Shown here: positions 11,609 to 34,120 of the stretch, piece by piece
Position numbering within the stretch: the stretch's first letter is position 1
Layout: each line of letters begins with the position of its first letter
DNA from: Sphingomonas sp. EC-HK361
GTDB lineage: Bacteria > Pseudomonadota > Alphaproteobacteria > Sphingomonadales > Sphingomonadaceae
DNA length: 64,000 nt
NCBI RefSeq assembly: GCF_902498785.1
Contig: NZ_LR701494.1
Coordinates: forward strand, 929,022-993,021
Reading direction: 5' to 3'
Translations under genes and position numbers: made by a program
Notes under the pieces: generated by a model
Database searches by the model: none
What the model was told of the DNA's origin: nothing
What the model saw: only the letters and a program-made list of their open reading frames with translations

Positions 11609-13249
11609 ATGAGCGCCCCGGTGCTCGATACCAAAGTCTCGCCCGAAAGCCCCGAATTCCAGGCCAACGCGGCGCACAACCGCGCGCTGGCCGAACGCCT
11701 GCGCGCCGATGTCGCGCAGGCCGCGCTTGGTGGCAGCGACAAGGCGCGCGACCGCCACACCGCGCGCGGAAAGCTCCTCCCCCGCGACCGCGTGGAGAGG
11801 CTGCTTGATCCGGGCAGCCCGTTCCTCGAGATTGGCCAGCTCGCCGCCTGCGACATGTATGAAGGGGAAGTCCCCGGCGCCGGCCTGATCGCGGGCATCG
11901 GCCGCGTCTCCGGACGGCAGTGCATGATCGTCTGCAACGACGCGACCTTGAAGGGCGGCACCTACTACCCGCTCACCGTCAAAAAGCATCTCCGCGCGCA
12001 GGAGATCGCCGAAGCGAACCGCCTCCCCTGCATCTACCTCGTCGACTCAGGCGGCGCGAACCTGCCCCACCAGGCGGAGGTGTTCCCCGACCGCGATCAT
12101 TTCGGCCGCATCTTCTTCAACCAGGCGAACATGTCGGCGAAAGGCATCCCCCAGATCGCGTGCGTCATGGGCAGTTGCACCGCCGGCGGCGCCTATGTCC
12201 CCGCCATGTCCGACGAGAGCGTGATCGTCCGCGGCCAAGGCACGATCTTCCTCGCCGGCCCCCCCTTGGTGCAGGCCGCGACCGGCGAGGTCATCTCCGC
12301 CGAAGACCTCGGCGGCGGCGACCTCCACGGCCGCAAGTCGGGCGTCGTCGATCACGTCGCCGAAAATGACGAGCACGCGCTGACGATCGTCCGCGATATC
12401 GTCAGCCACCTCGGCAACCCCCCGTTCGGGCTGAGCGAAGTCGAAGCCCACCCTTCGACTTCGCTCAGGGCTAACGGCACGAGGACACCCCGCCCCCCAA
12501 AATACGACGCCGAAGACTTATACGGCATCGTCCCCCAGGACGTCCGCGCCCCCTACGACGTCCACGAAGTCATCGCCCGCCTCGTCGATGGCAGCGAGTT
12601 CCACGAGTTCAAGGCGCTCTACGGCAGCAGCCTCGTCTGCGGTTTCGCGCACATCTGGGGTCAGCCGGTCGCCATCCTCGCCAACAACGGCGTCCTGTTC
12701 AGCGAGAGCGCGGTCAAGGGCGCCCACTTCATCGAACTCGCCTGCCAGCGCCGCGTGCCCTTGCTGTTCCTCCAGAACATTTCCGGCTTCATGGTCGGCG
12801 GAAAATACGAGGCGGAAGGCATTGCCAAACATGGCGCAAAGCTCGTCACCGCCGTCGCCACCGCGACCGTCCCCAAGATCACGATTTTGATCGGCGGCAG
12901 CTTCGGCGCCGGCAATTACGGGATGTGCGGCCGCGCCTATTCCCCCCGCTTCCTGTTCAGCTGGCCCAACAGCCGCATCAGCGTGATGGGCGGCGAACAG
13001 GCGGCTTCGGTGCTGGCGACCGTCCACCGCGACGCCGCGAACTGGACGCCCGAAGAGGCCGAAGCCTTCAAGGCACCAATCCGCCAGAAATACGAAGACG
13101 AAGGCAACCCCTGGCACGCCACCGCCCGCCTGTGGGACGACGGCATCATCGATCCGGCCCAGACCCGCGACGTCCTGGGCCTCGCGCTTGCCACCTGTCT
13201 CAACGCCCCAATCCCCGAGCGCCCCGCGTTCGGCGTGTTCCGGATGTGA
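11609..13249 (+). CDS. mccB: Methylcrotonyl-CoA carboxylase, carboxyltransferase (beta) subunit
   Basis: The 546-residue subunit transfers the carboxyl group from biotin to 3-methylcrotonyl-CoA in leucine degradation. Both carboxyltransferase halves are present ([27 protein letters not shown]-type loop [35 protein letters not shown]). It is slightly longer than usual because a 38-bp palindromic repeat sits in the reading frame at 12431-12468 (residues about 275-287, [13 protein letters not shown]), between the two halves, just before the conserved [13 protein letters not shown]. The alpha subunit is encoded downstream at 14215, separated by a repeat-borne nuclease and a small NTF2-like gene. 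Confidence 0.95.
12431..12468. repeat. GAGCGAAGTCGA-core palindromic repeat inside mccB
   Basis: CTGAGCGAAGTCGAAG (12431-12446), six bases, then its exact reverse complement (12453-12468). It belongs to the same family as the intergenic copies near 2405 and 26001 but lies within a coding sequence and keeps the frame open. Confidence 0.93.
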
Positions 13250-27407: not shown

Positions 27408-28166
27408 ATGGCAAGTGCAAGCGAACGCGTAACGACCCCGTCCCCGACCGGCGCGTCCTCGATCGATGCGAAGGAAGCCGCGCATTTCGGCGCGATGGCG
27501 GCCGACTGGTGGGACCCGAAGGGATCGTCGGCGATGCTCCACCGCCTGAACCCCCCGCGCCTCGCCTATATCCGCGAGCAGATCGACGCGCACTGGCACA
27601 TCGAAAGCAGCAGCTTCACGCCTCTCGCCGGCAAGCGCGCCCTCGACGTCGGCTGCGGCGCCGGCCTCCTGTGCGAGCCGCTAGCCCGGCTCGGCGCCAC
27701 CGTCACCGGCATCGACGCCGCCCCCGAAAACATCGCCGCGGCCAAGGCGCACGCGAGCACCAGCGGCCTGATCATAGACTACCGCGCCGGCAGCGTGGAA
27801 ACCGTCCCCGACCGCTTCGATCTCGTCACCTGCCTCGAGGTGATCGAGCACGTCGTCGACGCCCCCGCCTTCGTCCGCGCGCTGGCCAAGACGCTCGCGG
27901 AGGACGGCCTCCTCATCCTCTCCACCCCCAACCGCACGCCCAAATCCCGCCTAGCGCTCATCACCCTGGCAGAAGGCACCGGCCACATCCCCCGCGGCAC
28001 CCACGACTGGCACAAGTTCGTCACGCCCGAAGAACTGACCGCGATGGTGGAGGATACGGGGCTGTCCGCAACGGATCGTCGCGGGCTGGCTTTCTCGCCG
28101 GGGCGGGGGTTTCACCTGTCGGAGGATGTGGGGCTGGATTATTTCCTGACCGCGCGGCGCGGTTGA
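27408..28166 (+). CDS. ubiG: Ubiquinone biosynthesis O-methyltransferase UbiG
   Basis: A 252-residue SAM-dependent methyltransferase that makes both O-methylations of ubiquinone synthesis. The SAM-binding loop is ALDVGCGAGLLCEPLARLGATVTGID, preceded by the family-specific EAAHFGAMAADWWDPKGSSAMLHRLNPPRLAYI, and followed by DLVTCLEVIEHVVD and LILSTPNRTPKSR. HDWHKFVTPEEL is also typical. It is divergent from lysC. Confidence 0.97.
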   Translation: MASASERVTTPSPTGASSIDAKEAAHFGAMAADWWDPKGSSAMLHRLNPPRLAYIREQIDAHWHIESSSFTPLAGKRALDVGCGAGLLCEPLARLGATVTGIDAAPENIAAAKAHASTSGLIIDYRAGSVETVPDRFDLVTCLEVIEHVVDAPAFVRALAKTLAEDGLLILSTPNRTPKSRLALITLAEGTGHIPRGTHDWHKFVTPEELTAMVEDTGLSATDRRGLAFSPGRGFHLSEDVGLDYFLTARRG

Positions 28167-28541
28167 GGTTGGCGGGAATTGGGCAGCTTGCAGACTGGCA
28201 GCATTCTTACCGAACGCGAGAAGCAGACGTTGGTTCAGCTGACCTCGGCTGTCGCGAAGACCCATAAGGCGACACTCATAGCACCCTATCCGCTTCCCAC
28301 CTTCCGCCGTCGTTCGTCATGACCATCATCGATGTAATGTCAGTCTGACGCGACCCACTTTCCAAACGGTCCCTCCCCCTTCCCTACACCTGACCTACGT
28401 TCACGACGAGCCTGACGATGGCTTAGCGTCCGAATCGGCCATTGAAATAAGAGTCAGACCGTTTTGAAAATATCGCCTTTTCAAGTGCAATCAGGCGTCA
28501 GCTTTCGGCAAATATGCGCCATCACCGATCTTAAGGATGGT
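28167..28541. other. Gene-free junction next to the AbiE island
   Basis: This 375-bp stretch shows no convincing gene on either strand. Base composition drops here compared with ubiG, and the sequence contains only short open frames. It marks one border of the island that carries the AbiE-like pair. I found no tRNA or direct repeat that would define an attachment site. Confidence 0.5.
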
Positions 28542-29441
28542 TCAGCGACGTGTCCAAGGCAACGAGCGGTAAAATTTGTCCACAACTTCGAAACAGCCAT
28601 CGAAATCCGGCAGGTCCTCAAGCTCAAGGCCGAGCGTATCCCAATTTTTCGCTGCGCGATCCCGGACTTCGGCTTGGCCTAGCGCCTCGCGGTCAGGCTC
28701 GATGTCGCGAGCGCGGCACTTCTCCCGGAGCAAAGCAAGGAGGCGGACGCGCTCGTCCGCGTCAAGCGCGAATTGCTTCAGCAGGCAGGCGATGTCGTAG
28801 ACGTCTTGGCGTCGGTTGCGCCTGCGCTTCGGCTGTTGAAGCAGCGCGCGTAGTTTTTCCGCGATCAGGTCGAGCAGCGAATACGCTCGAACCGTCACAC
28901 CCTCGTGACCAAGCCGGACGATCTGAATGGCGTTCACCGGCTCGCGAAAGGCGATATCAACGTCGAGCACATTTGTTGCAGTGCCGGTGAGGAAAGTTCG
29001 CTCCTGAGGCGAACCGCGCCTCGCATAGCCTACGCGCAGAGCAAGGAGCGGGCCGTTTGCCTTGGCGAACATTCTTGCGCTCGGCTCGTAGCGCGACGAC
29101 TGAACGTTGCACATGAGGTCCGGATATCCGAGCTTCGCCGCCGCCCGGGGGAATGCGCTGTTTAGCTCGGCCTTGAGCGCTTCCGCCATCTCCTTGCTGG
29201 GCTCGCTGATCGCGGTGAAGTCGATGTCGCCGGTCTGGCGCGGGCTCTTATAAACCACTCCCATCAGGATTCCCCCCTTGAGGAATATCTCATTGGCAAA
29301 CGGTTTTGTCATCGCAAGTGCGGCAAGAAATATCTCGGTTATTTGGCGCTCGAGATGCGCCTGAGGATCGGCGTTGGCTTTCTCGATCCACTCGCTGATG
29401 TCGACCGCGATCCGCTCCCCTATTTCGACTGCTTCAGACAT
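28542..29441 (-). CDS. AbiEii/AbiGii-family nucleotidyltransferase toxin
   Basis: A 299-residue protein of the AbiEii toxin family. The nucleotidyltransferase motifs are LKGGILMG (54-61) and TGDIDF with Asp72 and Asp74, plus the downstream VRAYSLLDLIAEKLRALLQQPKRRRNRRQDVYDIACLL block typical of this family (K near EKLRAL, RxxDxYDI). In type IV toxin-antitoxin systems AbiEii stops growth, giving abortive phage defence; related enzymes modify tRNA. The gene overlaps the upstream partner by eight bases and has plainer codon use than the surrounding chromosome. Confidence 0.9.
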   Translation of the reverse strand: MSEAVEIGERIAVDISEWIEKANADPQAHLERQITEIFLAALAMTKPFANEIFLKGGILMGVVYKSPRQTGDIDFTAISEPSKEMAEALKAELNSAFPRAAAKLGYPDLMCNVQSSRYEPSARMFAKANGPLLALRVGYARRGSPQERTFLTGTATNVLDVDIAFREPVNAIQIVRLGHEGVTVRAYSLLDLIAEKLRALLQQPKRRRNRRQDVYDIACLLKQFALDADERVRLLALLREKCRARDIEPDREALGQAEVRDRAAKNWDTLGLELEDLPDFDGCFEVVDKFYRSLPWTRR

Positions 29442-30348
29442 TGAGCGATAGCATCCACTTTTCAGAGAATAAGGGGGCGAACGGCTTGCCAGGGTCTAGC
29501 ACGCGGCTGGACCCGCGTTGCGCGAAGCTTGCCCAGACCGAGATGCGCGGGTCGCGGATGCCGATATGCTCCTCCAAGATATATCCTGCGCGGACCTTCC
29601 AGATGCCTTTTTCCGCGCGCGCCACGCGATCTATGATTTCTTCGACATACGTAGGGGCATGTTCGGACCATATGTCGAGAACATGCGACATTCCGCCGCT
29701 CAGTTCGGGACTATCCAGCGTGTCGAGGAACGTCTGGCCGATCGTGGCGATCCGCGACAGGCTCCCTTTTATCGGGATCTGATCGGCGGGAAATTTGGTC
29801 GTGTCGATCGAGATCGGCCGGCCGCGCACCGTGTCTGGATGCGCCACTGCCTTCGCAGGCTCGATATCTTTATCGGTATCATCGAGGAGTTCGCCATAGT
29901 CGCGCTCCATTAGCTCGCGGACCAGCTGCCGCCGCATCACGGGCGTCGGTTCTACAAGTAGCAGATGCTCGGGGCGTCGGTTGGTGAGACCGTAACGCTG
30001 AAGCGCGGATAGATGGGCGATATGGCAGAAGGGATCGACTGAGCAGATCACATCCTCTGCCGGAGCGTCCGGTTTGTCGACCAGCCGCCAGTGCGAGCTG
30101 TAATCATGGTCTTGGCGAATAATCCCTTCACTGCGCAACAGGCTGCGCGTGCGCCTGAAAACCTCGCGGCTTGGTGTCTCGCCGCGCAGATATTTTGCGG
30201 TTTTGGACTGATATATGATCCACAGCTCGCGGAACATGTCGTAATTGGAAAGCACTGGCCTAGGCTGGCTGGTGAGCGCTCGTGAAAGCGTCTCAGCCAC
30301 CTGGGTCATTCGCTTACGTTGCTGAAATGGGCGCAGTGCTTCTCGCAT
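29434..30348 (-). CDS. AbiEi-like antitoxin/transcriptional autorepressor
   Basis: A 304-residue protein encoded immediately before the AbiEii-like toxin, in the antitoxin position. The N-terminal part looks like a winged-helix region (SNYDMFRELWIIYQSKTAKYLRGETPSREVFRRTRSLLRSEGII), and the middle resembles the AbiEi C-terminal domain (CSVDPFCHIAHLSALQRYGLTNRRPEHLLLVEP, GRPISIDT, IATIGQTFLDTLDSPELSGGMSHVLDIW). Family members neutralise the toxin and repress their own promoter by binding inverted repeats. Two large palindromes sit directly upstream. An in-frame ATG at 30309 is an alternative start. Confidence 0.82.
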   Translation of the reverse strand: MREALRPFQQRKRMTQVAETLSRALTSQPRPVLSNYDMFRELWIIYQSKTAKYLRGETPSREVFRRTRSLLRSEGIIRQDHDYSSHWRLVDKPDAPAEDVICSVDPFCHIAHLSALQRYGLTNRRPEHLLLVEPTPVMRRQLVRELMERDYGELLDDTDKDIEPAKAVAHPDTVRGRPISIDTTKFPADQIPIKGSLSRIATIGQTFLDTLDSPELSGGMSHVLDIWSEHAPTYVEEIIDRVARAEKGIWKVRAGYILEEHIGIRDPRISVWASFAQRGSSRVLDPGKPFAPLFSEKWMLSLNV

Positions 30349-30355
30349 TTTTCTC

Positions 30356-30400
30356 AGTGCCCTATATGCTATGTCCTAAGGACATAGCATATAGGGCACT
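30356..30400. promoter_or_regulatory. 45-bp perfect palindrome 1 (AbiE operator candidate)
   Basis: Twenty-two bases, a central A, and their exact reverse complement, with the core TATGTCCTAAGGACATA. It covers the -10 box and expected start point of the minus-strand promoter that faces the AbiEi gene, so a protein bound here would block transcription. Its outer arms (AGTGCCCTATATGC) differ entirely from those of palindrome 2. Confidence 0.85.
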
Positions 30401-30413
30401 ATGGCGTTGTCAA
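30386..30413 (-). promoter_or_regulatory. Sigma-70-type promoter of the AbiE pair
   Basis: On the minus strand TTGACA (30413-30408) is followed after 16 bases by TATGCT (30391-30386). Both boxes are near consensus. The -10 lies inside palindrome 1, and the predicted start is close to the palindrome's centre, about 30 bases before the AbiEi start codon. Confidence 0.7.
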
Positions 30414-30454
30414 GAGCAGCGCAGTAAGGACTGCTCCCAGTTTCTCAATCCACA

Positions 30455-30483
30455 TTGACAGTTTCTAACGTCGGCGATATCAT
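30455..30483 (+). promoter_or_regulatory. Divergent sigma-70-type promoter facing right
   Basis: TTGACA (30455-30460), 17 bases, TATCAT (30478-30483). The -10 box lies inside palindrome 2. No long gene follows; the first candidate is a 41-codon frame starting at 30499. Confidence 0.55.
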
Positions 30484-30513
30484 ATGTCCTAAGGACATAT
30501 GATATCGCCGACG
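30469..30513. promoter_or_regulatory. 45-bp perfect palindrome 2 (same core as palindrome 1)
   Basis: Again 22 bases, a central A and the exact reverse complement. The core TATGTCCTAAGGACATA is identical to that of palindrome 1 (centres 113 bases apart), but the outer arms (CGTCGGCGATATCA) are different. It overlays the rightward promoter. Confidence 0.85.
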
Positions 30514-30624
30514 CGTGTCTTCCGTATTTCCGCATTACATTTATAGCGAGAAACTGGTCCGCTATAGGCGTGATGGGAAGGTTGTCCCTTCCGCTGGAGA
30601 GCGCAACGACCAAGCAACGTTGAT
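30499..30624 (+). CDS. Possible 41-residue peptide divergent from the AbiE pair
   Basis: ATG 30499 is followed by 41 codons (begins MISPTRVFRISALHF, ends LPLESATTKQR) and a TGA. AAGGA from the palindrome core lies four bases before the ATG, and a near-consensus promoter lies just upstream. The peptide is basic and has no recognised relatives. It could equally be the decayed start of a lost gene or a chance frame over a non-coding transcript. Confidence 0.3.
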
Positions 30625-30960
30625 TGGTTATCAGCTGTTCAAGTGAGCGGAGTGCCGCCGACCGTTTGATATGAAGAGCAGCATTTAGGACTAGTGAAGC
30701 GCCCATCCAATGACGGGAATTGGGGCGCAAAGCGGTAATACGCCTAAAGTTGAAGAGGCAAGTCCCCCTGTCCTACAACCCACCCCTTGCGCCATAACCG
30801 GCACCGCTCTTTCAAACCGTCGATACCCGCTGTCCTACAGCCCCGGCTTCATGCAACGCGCGCGGGCGCGTGCACCCGCGCCTAGGTGTCAACCGTGTCA
30901 ACCTGCGCTGGTTTTCGCACCGCCATACAGGGCGTTAGCGAAACGCGCGGACCCGCCGAA
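30625..30960. other. Gene-poor stretch between the AbiE control region and phoD
   Basis: No convincing gene. The stretch holds a direct repeat CTGTCCTACA (30769 and 30830), an inverted repeat around GCGCGGG...CCCGCGC (about 30858-30880), and a 9-bp tandem duplication GTGTCAACC (30886-30903). Frames that cross it on both strands have no family resemblance. Confidence 0.5.
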
Positions 30961-32595
30961 TCACGCCATCATATTGCGCCCGCGCAACACCGTCGCGCTG
31001 TGCCCCACCTTCGCCCGCGGCGTGCGCGTCTTCACCGTGTCGGCCATCACCCAGTCGTTGGTCACCCGGTCCGCCGCGATCGTCATCGCCATATAGCCGC
31101 GGCGCGAGGTGTCGCACCATTTCAGCTCGGGGTTGCCGCGCACCAGCGTCGCGGCGACGACCTTCGGGTCGGTCTTGATCCCGCCCTCATAGCCCTGCGA
31201 CGTCACGCTCTGCCCCGCAAACTCGACCGCGGCGGGCTTGCCGTCCTGCGCCAGGTCATAGGCCCAGGCATTGTGGCTGTCGCCGGAGATGACGACGGTG
31301 CTGCTGCCAAGCGCCTGCGCCGATTTCAGGAACCGCGCCCGCGCTGCCGGATAGCCGCCCCAATTGTCGAAGTTGAACGGCAGCCCCACCTGCGCCGCGG
31401 CGATCCCGCTCTCGATATAGCCGCGCGACCGCGGGCTGGCGCTCGCGTCCAGCCACGAGGCGGCGTCCTTCGGCATCACCGTCTGCCCCATGATCGTGCC
31501 GAAGCCGACGACCTGCCACGGCCGCCCGCTTTTCACCGAAGCGCGCATCGCGTGGGACAGCCAGACCTCCTGCGCGCTCCCCATCATCGTCGCCGCCGGG
31601 TCCGCCCACGGTCCGTCGCGGAACGCCTTCAGCGCGGCGACCGGGTCGGCGTTTTTGAACAGCGGCGCGATATCGGGCTGCTCGGTGCGGGCCAGGATGC
31701 GCGTCTCGGTGCGGAACAGAGTCGCGAGCTGTCCGATGTCATAGGCCTTCCACGGCTCGTCGCTCACCGGCATCCACTCGCGATACGCCTGGATCGCGGC
31801 GGCGCGGCGCGGATTCCAGTCGCCTTCGGTCTTGGGATCGTGGTTCTCGGCGCCGCCCTCCCAGCTGTCGTTCGCCGACTCATGGTCGTCCCACTGCACG
31901 ATCATCGGCAGCCGCGCATGGATCGCGCGCAAATCCGGGTCGCTGCGATAGCTGGCATAGCGAAGCCGGTAATCGGCGAGCACGATGATCTCGTGGTGAG
32001 GCTCGGGCACCGGCACCCGCCCCGGGATCACATCCTTGGCGACCGGATATTTCCCCGGCGAGTACTCGTAAAAATAATCGCCCAGATGGATCGCGCAGTC
32101 GATGTCGTTGCGCGCCGCGGCATGGGCATAGGCGTTGAACCAGCCGAAACCGAGGTTCGAGCACGAGAAGATCGCCGCCCGCCACGCTTTCGCCCCGTCC
32201 GCCGGCAGCGTCTTCGTCCGCCCCACCGGCGACATGGAGCCATCCGGCGCGATGAAGCGGTAGTGATAGTCGCGCCCCGGCTGGAGGCCGTCGACCGTCA
32301 CCTTCACCGTATGGTCACGCCACGGCCCGGTGCGCATCACGCCGCCGGTCACGACCTTCGCAAAGTCCCGCGTCTCCGCCACCTCGACCCGCACATCCGC
32401 CGCGCCGCCGTCCGCGGGCACGTAGCGGGTCCAGAACAGCATCTGGTCCTGCCCCGGCTCCCCGCTCGCCACAGAATGGGTGAAGCCCCGCGCCGCGCCG
32501 AGCATCTGCGCGCCGGCAAAGCCGGGGATCGCCATCGCCCCCAGCCCCAGCGTTCCGGTCAGCAGCAGCGAACGGCGGTCGAGCATCAGCGTCAT
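30961..32595 (-). CDS. phoD: PhoD-type alkaline phosphatase/phosphodiesterase
   Basis: A 544-residue exported metallophosphoesterase of the PhoD family. A Tat signal (DRRSLLLTGTLGLGAMAIPGFAGA) leads, followed by the N-terminal Fn3-like domain (FTHSVASGEPGQDQMLFWTRYVP) and the metal centre, with FSCSNLGFGWFNAYAHAA, DCAIHLGDYFYEY, VQWDDHESANDSW and VVISGDSHNAWAYDL. It releases phosphate from phosphodiesters and monoesters in the periplasm. I use the ATG at 32595, eight bases after AAGGGG; ATG 32601 is nearly as good. It is divergent from the glycosyltransferase operon. Confidence 0.93.
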   Translation of the reverse strand: MTLMLDRRSLLLTGTLGLGAMAIPGFAGAQMLGAARGFTHSVASGEPGQDQMLFWTRYVPADGGAADVRVEVAETRDFAKVVTGGVMRTGPWRDHTVKVTVDGLQPGRDYHYRFIAPDGSMSPVGRTKTLPADGAKAWRAAIFSCSNLGFGWFNAYAHAAARNDIDCAIHLGDYFYEYSPGKYPVAKDVIPGRVPVPEPHHEIIVLADYRLRYASYRSDPDLRAIHARLPMIVQWDDHESANDSWEGGAENHDPKTEGDWNPRRAAAIQAYREWMPVSDEPWKAYDIGQLATLFRTETRILARTEQPDIAPLFKNADPVAALKAFRDGPWADPAATMMGSAQEVWLSHAMRASVKSGRPWQVVGFGTIMGQTVMPKDAASWLDASASPRSRGYIESGIAAAQVGLPFNFDNWGGYPAARARFLKSAQALGSSTVVISGDSHNAWAYDLAQDGKPAAVEFAGQSVTSQGYEGGIKTDPKVVAATLVRGNPELKWCDTSRRGYMAMTIAADRVTNDWVMADTVKTRTPRAKVGHSATVLRGRNMMA

Positions 32596-32683
32596 GGTCA
32601 TCCCCTTGCGAGTCGCCGCGGCTTGCGCGCAGTCTGTGATGGTATCGTGACAGAGCCCGCGATCATTTCTAGGGCGGATCGGG

Positions 32684-34120
32684 ATGACCCGGCTGCTCAC
32701 CCCGCTTCGCTTGTGGCTGCTGCTAGCGCTGGTGCTGGCGGCGGTAGCGATGGCGCGGCCGATCGATCACGACGAAAGCCAGTATGTCGCCGCCGCCGTG
32801 CTCGCGGCGCACGGGCTGATTCCGTACCGTGACTTCGCCTATCTGCAGACGCCGCTCCAGCCGCTGCTCTTCGGCCCGCTCGCCGGGATCGGCGGCATCT
32901 GGACATGGCCGCTGCTGCGACTGGCGAACGCGGTGCTGGGCGCAGCGGCGATCGCCTTCGTCTACCGCGCCGGCCGGATCGGAAACGCGGGCCAGCGCCC
33001 CGCGCTGATCGCGGCGGGCCTGTTCGCCTGTTGCGACATCCTGCTTTTCAGCATCGGCACCGCGCGCAACGATGCGCTGCCCGCCGCGCTTCTCGCCGCC
33101 GCCCTGCCCTTCGTCGTTGCCGCCGAGCGAGGTGTTGTCTCGAAGCTCCCGGCGATGCTCGTGGGTCTGCTGCTGGCAGGCGCGGCAGCGGCAAAGATAT
33201 CCTACGCTCTCCCCGCGGCAGCTTACGGGGTTTACGCCCTCGTCAACCGCCGCCACCTGCCGTTCTTCGTGCTGATCGGCGCGCTCCCCGCGGCGTCGCT
33301 GGTGGCGGCAAGCTGGTGGTCGAGCCCCGAAGCCTTCGTGGCGGACGTACTCCGCTTTCCATCGCTAGCGCCGGCAGAATATTATGCGGCTGGCGGGCGC
33401 CTGTGGAAGCTGTCTTACGCGGCGAAGGCAATCGATACGCTCAAGTTCCTGGCGCTCGGCCCGGCGCTTCTCGCGGTTCTGCTGTGCATTCGCGATCGGC
33501 GCTCGGCGCGGCAGCTCGAGGCGATCGACTGGCTCGCGCTCGCAGGCCTCATCGCGGCGCTTTTGCCGTTTCCGACGTGGCGGCAATATCTTCTGCCGAT
33601 GCTGCCGCCGCTCTTCGTCCGGCTCGCGCTGGTGCTGAACGACCGCTCCCCGACACGTCCGACGCTGATCGCAGGGGGCGTCTTCGCCTTTGCCGGTCTC
33701 GTCCCGACGCTGCTGTCGCTCGGCGCGTGGCCGATGCCGCAAGCGATGCGCGACGGACAAGCGATCGGCGATGCCCTGACCCGCGCGCACGTTCTGGAAC
33801 CGGTGGCCACGCTCAGCCCGCAATTCCTTCCCGCCGCGCGCCGCCTGCCAGACCCGCGCTTTGCGACCGGTCCCTTCTATTTCCGCAGCACCGCGCTGTT
33901 CTCCCCCGCTGAGGAAGCGCGGCTGGGGCTCGTCTCTCAAGCGCGGCTCGATCAGGGGCTTGCGATCCGGCCGGCCGCCATCCTCACCGGCGGCGAGGGC
34001 GCATGGACCAGCGGTGACGACGCACTCGACGCGCGCCTCGCCGATTGGGCGACGCGCGCCGGCTATGCCCGCGTCGATGTGGCCGGCACGCGCTTCCGTC
34101 TCTATATCCGCCCGCGATGA
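32684..34120 (+). CDS. Membrane glycosyltransferase-like protein (ArnT/PMT superfamily)
   Basis: A 478-residue protein with about ten membrane helices. The first periplasmic loop has MARPIDHDESQYVAAAVLAAHGLIPYRDFAYLQTPLQPLL, the Asp-Glu loop of lipid-linked sugar transferases of the ArnT/protein mannosyltransferase type, and the rest alternates hydrophobic segments. Such enzymes move a sugar from a polyprenyl carrier to a target at the outer face of the inner membrane. It overlaps the next gene as ATGA. Confidence 0.8.
   Translation: MTRLLTPLRLWLLLALVLAAVAMARPIDHDESQYVAAAVLAAHGLIPYRDFAYLQTPLQPLLFGPLAGIGGIWTWPLLRLANAVLGAAAIAFVYRAGRIGNAGQRPALIAAGLFACCDILLFSIGTARNDALPAALLAAALPFVVAAERGVVSKLPAMLVGLLLAGAAAAKISYALPAAAYGVYALVNRRHLPFFVLIGALPAASLVAASWWSSPEAFVADVLRFPSLAPAEYYAAGGRLWKLSYAAKAIDTLKFLALGPALLAVLLCIRDRRSARQLEAIDWLALAGLIAALLPFPTWRQYLLPMLPPLFVRLALVLNDRSPTRPTLIAGGVFAFAGLVPTLLSLGAWPMPQAMRDGQAIGDALTRAHVLEPVATLSPQFLPAARRLPDPRFATGPFYFRSTALFSPAEEARLGLVSQARLDQGLAIRPAAILTGGEGAWTSGDDALDARLADWATRAGYARVDVAGTRFRLYIRPR

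Follow-up and report, generated by a model that had tools for sequence, protein, structure and literature searches.

The usual view of operators is that they persist because selection acts on every base that a regulator touches. The locus described here raises the question of how a presumed operator can be kept otherwise: much of a 45-bp palindrome upstream of an antitoxin gene is nearly unconstrained in its letters yet flawless in its pairing, and this is the case in three bacterial classes. The DNA that was analysed, here called the window, is a stretch of 64,000 nucleotides from Sphingomonas sp. EC-HK361. An earlier note, made from the letters of the window, had drawn attention to two such palindromes beside an AbiE-type locus, and had left the origin of their perfect but differing arms unexplained.

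The abiE locus and its palindromes

The features on which the argument depends are the following.

28542..29441, minus strand: abiEii, predicted nucleotidyltransferase toxin, 299 aa (Pfam PF08843, 2.5e-31; PADLOC PDLC02306, 1.3e-105)
29434..30348, minus strand: abiEi, antitoxin and presumed autorepressor, 304 aa (PADLOC PDLC02237, 9.4e-101)
30356..30400, no strand: proximal palindrome, 22+1+22, centre 30378, with 7 nt between its end and the abiEi start codon
30370..30386, no strand: shared core TATGTCCTAAGGACATA in the proximal palindrome, its family-wide centre TCCTNAGGA at 30374-30382
30386..30413, minus strand: promoter-like site toward abiEi, TTGACA 30413-30408, 16 bp, TATGCT 30391-30386 in the proximal palindrome; 10/12 consensus
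30455..30483, plus strand: divergent promoter-like site, TTGACA 30455-30460, 17 bp, TATCAT 30478-30483 in the distal palindrome; 11/12 consensus
30469..30513, no strand: distal palindrome, 22+1+22, centre 30491
30483..30499, no strand: shared core TATGTCCTAAGGACATA in the distal palindrome, its family-wide centre TCCTNAGGA at 30487-30495
30961-32700, minus strand: phoD-like gene, right of the palindromes and oriented against the divergent promoter-like site

The genes abiEi and abiEii follow one another on the same strand with an overlap of 8 bp. Their matches to AbiEi and AbiEii in PADLOC and Pfam bear out the claim that an AbiE-type locus lies beside the palindromes and, judged by gene content, the locus can be assigned to the AbiE type IV toxin-antitoxin systems. 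The AbiEi_1 C-terminal domain was detected in 24 of the 31 aligned members at E values up to 0.5 (the best being 1.3e-6), and the copy in the window, with 0.044, falls below the cut-off. A profile search at E up to 1 returned no relative of AbiEi in the PDB, and a structure prediction made from five close sequences was too poor for use (mean pLDDT 40.4, pTM 0.27). The G+C content is 0.53-0.60 over positions 28000-30999 and 0.68-0.71 on both sides; the low-G+C stretch corresponds to abiE plus approx. 0.5 kb to its right and, because its G+C is well under that of the flanks, it is probably an acquired island.

Both palindromes were recovered exactly as the earlier note had described them, as two 22+1+22 structures of 45 bp with 100% arm complementarity and no mismatch, and their centres are 113 bp apart; the runner-up in the whole window has arms of 13 nt (spacer of 0-1 nt). 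The common core is also real and amounts to 17 bp. The statement that the outer arms are unrelated holds for the outer eight positions and fails at positions 11-14 (arm positions are numbered outward from the centre), where both palindromes have ATAT, so that the two agree at 25 of the 29 central bases. When folded as single-stranded DNA they give stems of 21 bp, with -23.4 and -24.8 kcal/mol (z < -10). Elsewhere in the window, a direct repeat of 18 nt with 89% identity and the common word CTGTCCTACA is found to the right of the palindromes (30764-30781 and 30826-30843), and a 16+6+16 hairpin at 12431-12468, whose arms contain TTCGACTTCGCTCAG, is the sole site of its kind in the window and has no counterpart in 116 loci.

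Promoter-like sites under the palindromes

The two near-consensus promoters reported by the earlier note, with one -10 box in each palindrome, were both recovered by a sigma-70-like consensus scan, which found these 2 sites against a mean of 0.5 in shuffled sequence. Because the -10 boxes are placed inside the palindromes, transcription would be expected to start close to the centres, 30378 and 30491. On the abiEi side this arrangement recurs: of the 27 representative loci with two palindromes, 21 have a TTGAC placed 30-37 bp upstream of the proximal centre, against an expectation of 0.7% per site, and from this spacing the proximal core typically overlies the predicted abiE transcription start. 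The other 6 of the 27 have no TTGAC at that distance, and the palindrome centre is therefore not the predicted start everywhere. On the distal side, the description of the promoters as divergent is right for this window, but across the same 27 representatives the orientation of the distal TTGAC varies; it faces away from abiEi at 30-37 bp from the centre in 10 and at 38-44 bp in 4, and it faces abiEi at 30-37 bp in another 4. No gene that a divergent promoter might serve was recognised between the distal palindrome and the phoD-like gene. Taken by position, inverted repeats that overlie a consensus-predicted promoter upstream of abiEi have the arrangement of an AbiEi-type operator.

Distribution among AbiEi relatives

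Relatives were gathered by similarity to the AbiEi protein or family. They comprise four Sphingomonas loci at 81-83% identity, 22 plasmid loci (down to 25-26% identity) taken from 150 plasmid records with an AbiEi relative, and further loci from family-, class-, phylum- and genus-level searches; seven plasmid loci were added by similarity of the promoter DNA, and L117 is an additional piece of a plasmid already in this set (loci other than the window are designated by L and a number). Loci that duplicate a genome already sampled (L007-L012, L019, L026 and L107-L109) were kept out of the counts, and the viral-contig stretches L005 and L006 were kept outside the motif table. All 44 strong AbiEi matches, which come from Alpha-, Beta- and Gammaproteobacteria and reach down to approx. 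25% identity, have a perfect palindrome, or two, upstream of the gene; one of them, L110, has the same promoter as L018. The centre TCCTNAGGA is present upstream of abiEi in 43 of the 44, and TGTCCTNAGGACA was confined to the abiE locus in all four draft genomes of close relatives that were searched, which together give indirect support to the suggestion that the common core is the repressor site.

Adding the window and the seven loci found by DNA similarity brings the set to 51 loci, of which 43 have two palindromes and 8 a single one, or 94 palindromes in total, and these occupy the same place relative to abiEi throughout. Their perfect arms range from 15 to 28 with a mean of 21.5 (s.d. 1.7), and in the two-palindrome loci the centres are 70-152 bp apart. 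When the upstream regions of the 51 loci were shuffled with an order-1 Markov model (2,040 shuffles), the longest arm obtained was 11. A search for a second, decayed palindrome in the 8 one-palindrome loci gave no convincing copy within 400 bp; in one of them, L062, the partner lies stranded approx. 14.8 kb away and is still perfect. This is the case of the Phaeobacter plasmid pP13_h, where the two palindromes of one abiE locus are L117:1519-1563 (distal) and L062:1451-1495.

The palindromes do not appear to be a general trait of AbiEi loci. Thirty PF13338 loci (89,040 bases, some of them below the model cut-off) had no palindrome with arms longer than 12 and a spacer of 0-3, and TCCTNAGGA was absent from the 21 weak PDLC02237 matches L030-L050 and from the weak match L116. 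A phage origin of the motif was also considered and rejected; the exact 17-bp core occurs in two viral-contig stretches, where it forms perfect palindromes of 39 and 37 bp with TATGTCCTTAGGACATA at the centre (L005:5471-5509 and L006:213-249), and because these are of other lengths and no AbiE-like ORF was recognised beside them, they are taken as unrelated. The ORFs of these contigs were judged by eye, for L006 over 5.2 kb of a 42-kb contig, and no AbiEi relative was confirmed in viral contigs.

Several observations fall beside this family. The exception among the strong matches, the remoter AbiEi locus L029, has a perfect 25+3+25 palindrome with another centre (1379-1431), and the remoter locus L030 has, on the reverse strand at 1300-1327 and 1349-1376, two 14+0+14 palindromes that share TATAGTATATATACTATA and differ in their self-complementary ends; the habit of perfect palindromes may thus extend beyond the TCCTNAGGA family. 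An additional perfect palindrome, 17+1+17 with a different centre, is found at L051:3556-3590 in the same locus as an abiE pair. In rhodobacteral plasmids (L017, L054, L055, L056, L061, L062 and L117) abiE is often near a WGR-domain gene, a tyrosine recombinase and/or an N-6 DNA methylase gene, a neighbourhood that suggests a mobile defence cluster.

Sequence information and pairing

The information carried by each arm position was calculated from 47 palindromes, one representative per close group; L064 was left out of this table and included in the comparison of close groups described below. Positions 1-4 are invariant, being part of the search motif; information is 1.70 bits at position 5, has dropped to 0.26 bits by position 10 and does not exceed 0.11 bits at positions 11-18. 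Pairing follows a very different course, with 47 of 47 palindromes paired at each position to 18, 46 at position 19, 39 at 21 and 27 at 23, and the palindromes end abruptly, given that from positions 24 to 30 only 9-19 of the 47 are paired, which is background. In addition, the two palindromes of one locus face one and the same AbiEi and differ in their outer arms.

Palindromes were accepted if they had a TCCTNAGGA centre and an arm of at least 12, and pairing at positions 1-12 is therefore partly a result of selection by this rule; positions 13-18 provide the fair test. Among 83 distinct palindromes, 82 are fully paired at these positions and 3 of 498 pairs are unpaired. All three belong to the distal palindrome of L064, one arm of which has an extra base (an indel), and without this palindrome the count is 0 mismatched pairs in 492. 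The corresponding upper bound on mismatches is approx. 0.6%, from which it can be estimated, assuming a steady state, that correction would be at least approx. 300 times faster than substitution per site.

How arms and centres change

Orthologous palindromes were compared within seven close groups, in comparisons that overlap and are not independent. At positions 1-18 there were 82 differences that affect both arms versus 13 that affect one, and all 13, together with two mixed cells, arise in comparisons with L064. At the outer positions 19-24 the same overlapping, non-independent comparisons gave 72 two-arm versus 105 one-arm differences. Freely decaying arms in relatives, which the earlier note had named as an outcome contrary to its reading, were thus not seen; decay occurs at the outermost positions only, save for the indel of L064. 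The concerted change of both arms is the pattern that template switching would be expected to leave. Nine pairs without overlap were compared separately, and changes were found at 39 of 216 positions in the arms versus 161 of 468 in the flanks; the arm changes in this set are always two-arm by construction, because the count was limited to the length of the shorter arm. The rate of change in the arms is approx. half of that in the flanks, which indicates some constraint beyond pairing, and intermediate states are hardly ever seen.

The changes can be followed at closest range in a family of small plasmids from E. coli, Klebsiella and Salmonella; it comprises 52 records, of which 46 have at least 99% identity over 201 bases. 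Over these 201 bases, L069 and L070 differ solely at the two centre bases, T versus A; L072 has A at the distal centre and T at the proximal centre, together with two further differences outside the centres. At the outer position 19, L071 is changed in one arm and the more distant L073 in both. Of the 52 records, 41 have T and 11 have A at the distal centre, and 50 have T and 2 have A at the proximal one, with no C or G at either; these states were deduced from which of two 100-base BLAST queries fits better, and were read directly in five records. The inversion of a one-base spacer predicts centres of this kind, T or A only, although not uniquely, as a T/A transversion gives the same result. 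The T/A centres are therefore taken as suggestive, because the records look largely clonal and because elsewhere the centre changes in other ways (L018 has G versus T in L112, and L061 has C versus A in L062).

Arm length behaves differently from arm letters, since within clades of the AbiEi tree it stays steady as the letters are replaced. Equal arm lengths in both palindromes of a locus were found in 14 of 25 representatives (Spearman 0.80), which had raised the possibility of a ruler acting in trans. This idea was dropped, as the raw correlation is lost under phylogenetic contrasts; with 35 loci and 34 contrasts, r was -0.03 (p 0.68) and the rank correlation 0.26 (p 0.14), with the same sign in 15 of 21 non-zero contrasts. 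In view of this null result, the claim made here is limited to a conserved arm length.

A proposed explanation and its alternatives

The explanation that we consider reasonably probable, on comparison of the sequences, is that the core is an AbiEi operator at the transcription start and that the arms are kept identical by template switching at a hairpin and not by selection base by base. According to this proposal, each palindrome would be an operator of the antitoxin AbiEi, whose homodimer would read TCCTNAGGA and, more weakly, the bases out to approx. 10 bp per side. In most loci the core would sit on the transcription start and the -10 box, so that bound AbiEi would shut the promoter, and two operators 70-152 bp apart could provide tight autorepression. 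Base-by-base reading would not extend to the outer half of the arms. Instead, during DNA synthesis the arms would snap back into a hairpin of approx. 21 bp in which one arm templates the other (template switching, or 'quasipalindrome correction'), with the result that a one-arm change would soon be copied across or erased, and the odd central base would sometimes be inverted by the copying. Arm length near 22 would be held by another constraint, perhaps the footprint of AbiEi, given that known AbiEi half-sites are of 23 bp. We infer all four of these elements, i.e., AbiEi binding, the start at the centre, the copying and the constraint on length.

The earlier note had offered three causes for arms that are perfect but different, and the one that fits best is strand copying, with which the concerted changes, the T/A centre states and the sharp arm ends all agree. 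Templated copying is favoured as the keeper of arm identity because selection on structure would leave tolerated mismatches and selection on bases would leave sequence information, and neither was seen. If AbiEi or another protein recognised the extruded hairpin or cruciform by its tip and stem length, mismatches could be purged with no copying at all; integron integrase recognises folded attC sites in a comparable manner. Selection of this kind would account for sequence-free arms of nearly fixed length around a conserved tip, for the stable single-stranded hairpins and for arm lengths that are often equal within a locus. We nevertheless regard it as rather unlikely, given that one mispaired base in a stem of 22 bp should have little effect and intermediates should be found, and yet there are none at positions 13-18 in 82 of 83 palindromes, while pairs do change; the correlation of arm lengths, moreover, is non-significant under phylogenetic contrasts. 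The dimer-of-dimers site, the other cause on offer, would be a long operator in which four AbiEi subunits read all 45 bp, so that every base would be under selection in both arms, and the arm length does fit the 23-bp half-site described for AbiEi of S. agalactiae and for Rv2827c. It is quite improbable when set against the near-zero information at positions 11-18 and against the two palindromes that face one AbiEi with different outer arms. Natural dimer operators, furthermore, are seldom free of mismatches.

An RNA hairpin, acting as an attenuator, an RNase III site or an insulator, would agree with the perfect stem, and Rfam microRNA models do match the hairpins, all of them below the gathering scores. 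However, with the usual promoter geometry and a predicted start at the centre, the abiE transcript would contain one arm only; RNA stems tolerate G-U pairs, whereas no mismatch of any type is present at positions 13-18 outside L064; and a terminator-like site is absent from 30200-30960. A selected RNA structure is for these reasons very improbable. That the palindromes reflect chance or faulty assembly is scarcely credible, considering that 51 loci have them at the same place by abiEi, that these loci stem from a large number of isolates and projects and include complete plasmids, and that shuffled sequences never gave an arm above 11 nt.

The proposal of an AbiEi operator with template switching leaves arm length to be accounted for. 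It is 21.5 with an s.d. of 1.7, though copying alone would erode the ends, and something else must therefore act on length; this could be the AbiEi footprint or a binding mode that reads structure. A stronger version, which is possible if on balance unlikely, is that of a self-perfecting operator, in which AbiEi, or a stalled or opened promoter under its control, would stabilise the extruded hairpin and so drive templated copying at its own operator. If this were true, AbiEi would set the length and symmetry of the site while the arm letters would be free, and the site would be maintained by steering DNA synthesis.

What the palindromes may be used for

The palindromes are a genuine, widespread and unusual regulatory feature. 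Each locus would be a replicate in a natural record of hairpin-templated copying, and the palindromes could serve as a reporter of what turns a palindrome into a copying hotspot. They also call for caution, as perfect covariation in inverted repeats need not imply a selected structure. AbiEi operators and template switching are each already known, and what may be new here is their combination; in the open-access literature searched, mostly by title and abstract, there was no report of perfect AbiE palindromes or of a family of operators whose arms are flawless yet free in sequence.

Comparison with known systems

The closest relatives of the sites described here are other AbiE operators, as far as these are set out in the accounts cited. 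The promoter in S. agalactiae is repressed by AbiEi, which binds there to two 23-bp inverted repeats with 3 bp between them (PMC3985639). This system shares with the present one its type IV pair, a promoter upstream of abiEi that is overlaid by inverted repeats, and a dyad of nearly the same size. Its dyad has 4 mismatches and is perfect over 11 bp at the outer ends, whereas here the palindrome is perfect and usually doubled, its centre is conserved and its outer arms are free (PMC3985639); conservation of the outer 11 bp as in S. agalactiae was thus not found, and it is instead central, at positions 1-10. Likewise, AbiEi of an S. suis ICE binds promoter palindromes upstream of abiEi, again as part of a type IV pair with inverted repeats over the promoter (PMC11062541). 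In M. tuberculosis, Rv2827c binds two pairs of 23-bp inverted repeats with an affinity that follows the match to the consensus, and these repeat pairs are upstream of an AbiEi-like antitoxin, one of them over the promoter (PMC7319586). The repeats of Rv2827c are, however, 13 bp apart within a pair, with 4 bp between pairs, in contrast with 1 bp within a palindrome and centres 70-152 bp apart in the family described here (PMC7319586). By analogy with these systems, the arm length found here fits a 23-bp AbiEi half-site.

The proposed copying also has precedents. In yeast, template switching between the arms of inverted repeats has been reported to homogenise the arms and to invert the spacer (PMC8604942), and quasipalindrome correction in yeast and E. 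coli resembles what is proposed here in its arm homogenisation, spacer inversion and mutational hotspots (PMC8604942, PMC7202029). In the accounts cited it is known from scattered or reporter sites, whereas here it is proposed to act at one dedicated regulatory site across a gene family (PMC8604942, PMC7202029). Template switching has also been proposed as a source of compensatory changes in RNA hairpins (PMC8794818). The mitochondrial DNA of Nematomorpha offers the nearest parallel in appearance, as nearly all of its long repeats are perfect and their arms co-evolve, and the authors of that study argue for an active elimination of mismatches and propose template switching (PMC6649704). The near-total perfection and the concerted change of the arms are common to both cases, but the nematomorph palindromes are scattered, partly species-specific and located in mitochondrial coding genes, whereas those described here share a fixed place, a core and a length, upstream of a single bacterial gene (PMC6649704). 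Finally, in yeast without RNase H2, quasipalindrome mutations were reported only under high transcription (PMC3820800), a dependence that is of interest here because the abiE palindromes sit on promoters.
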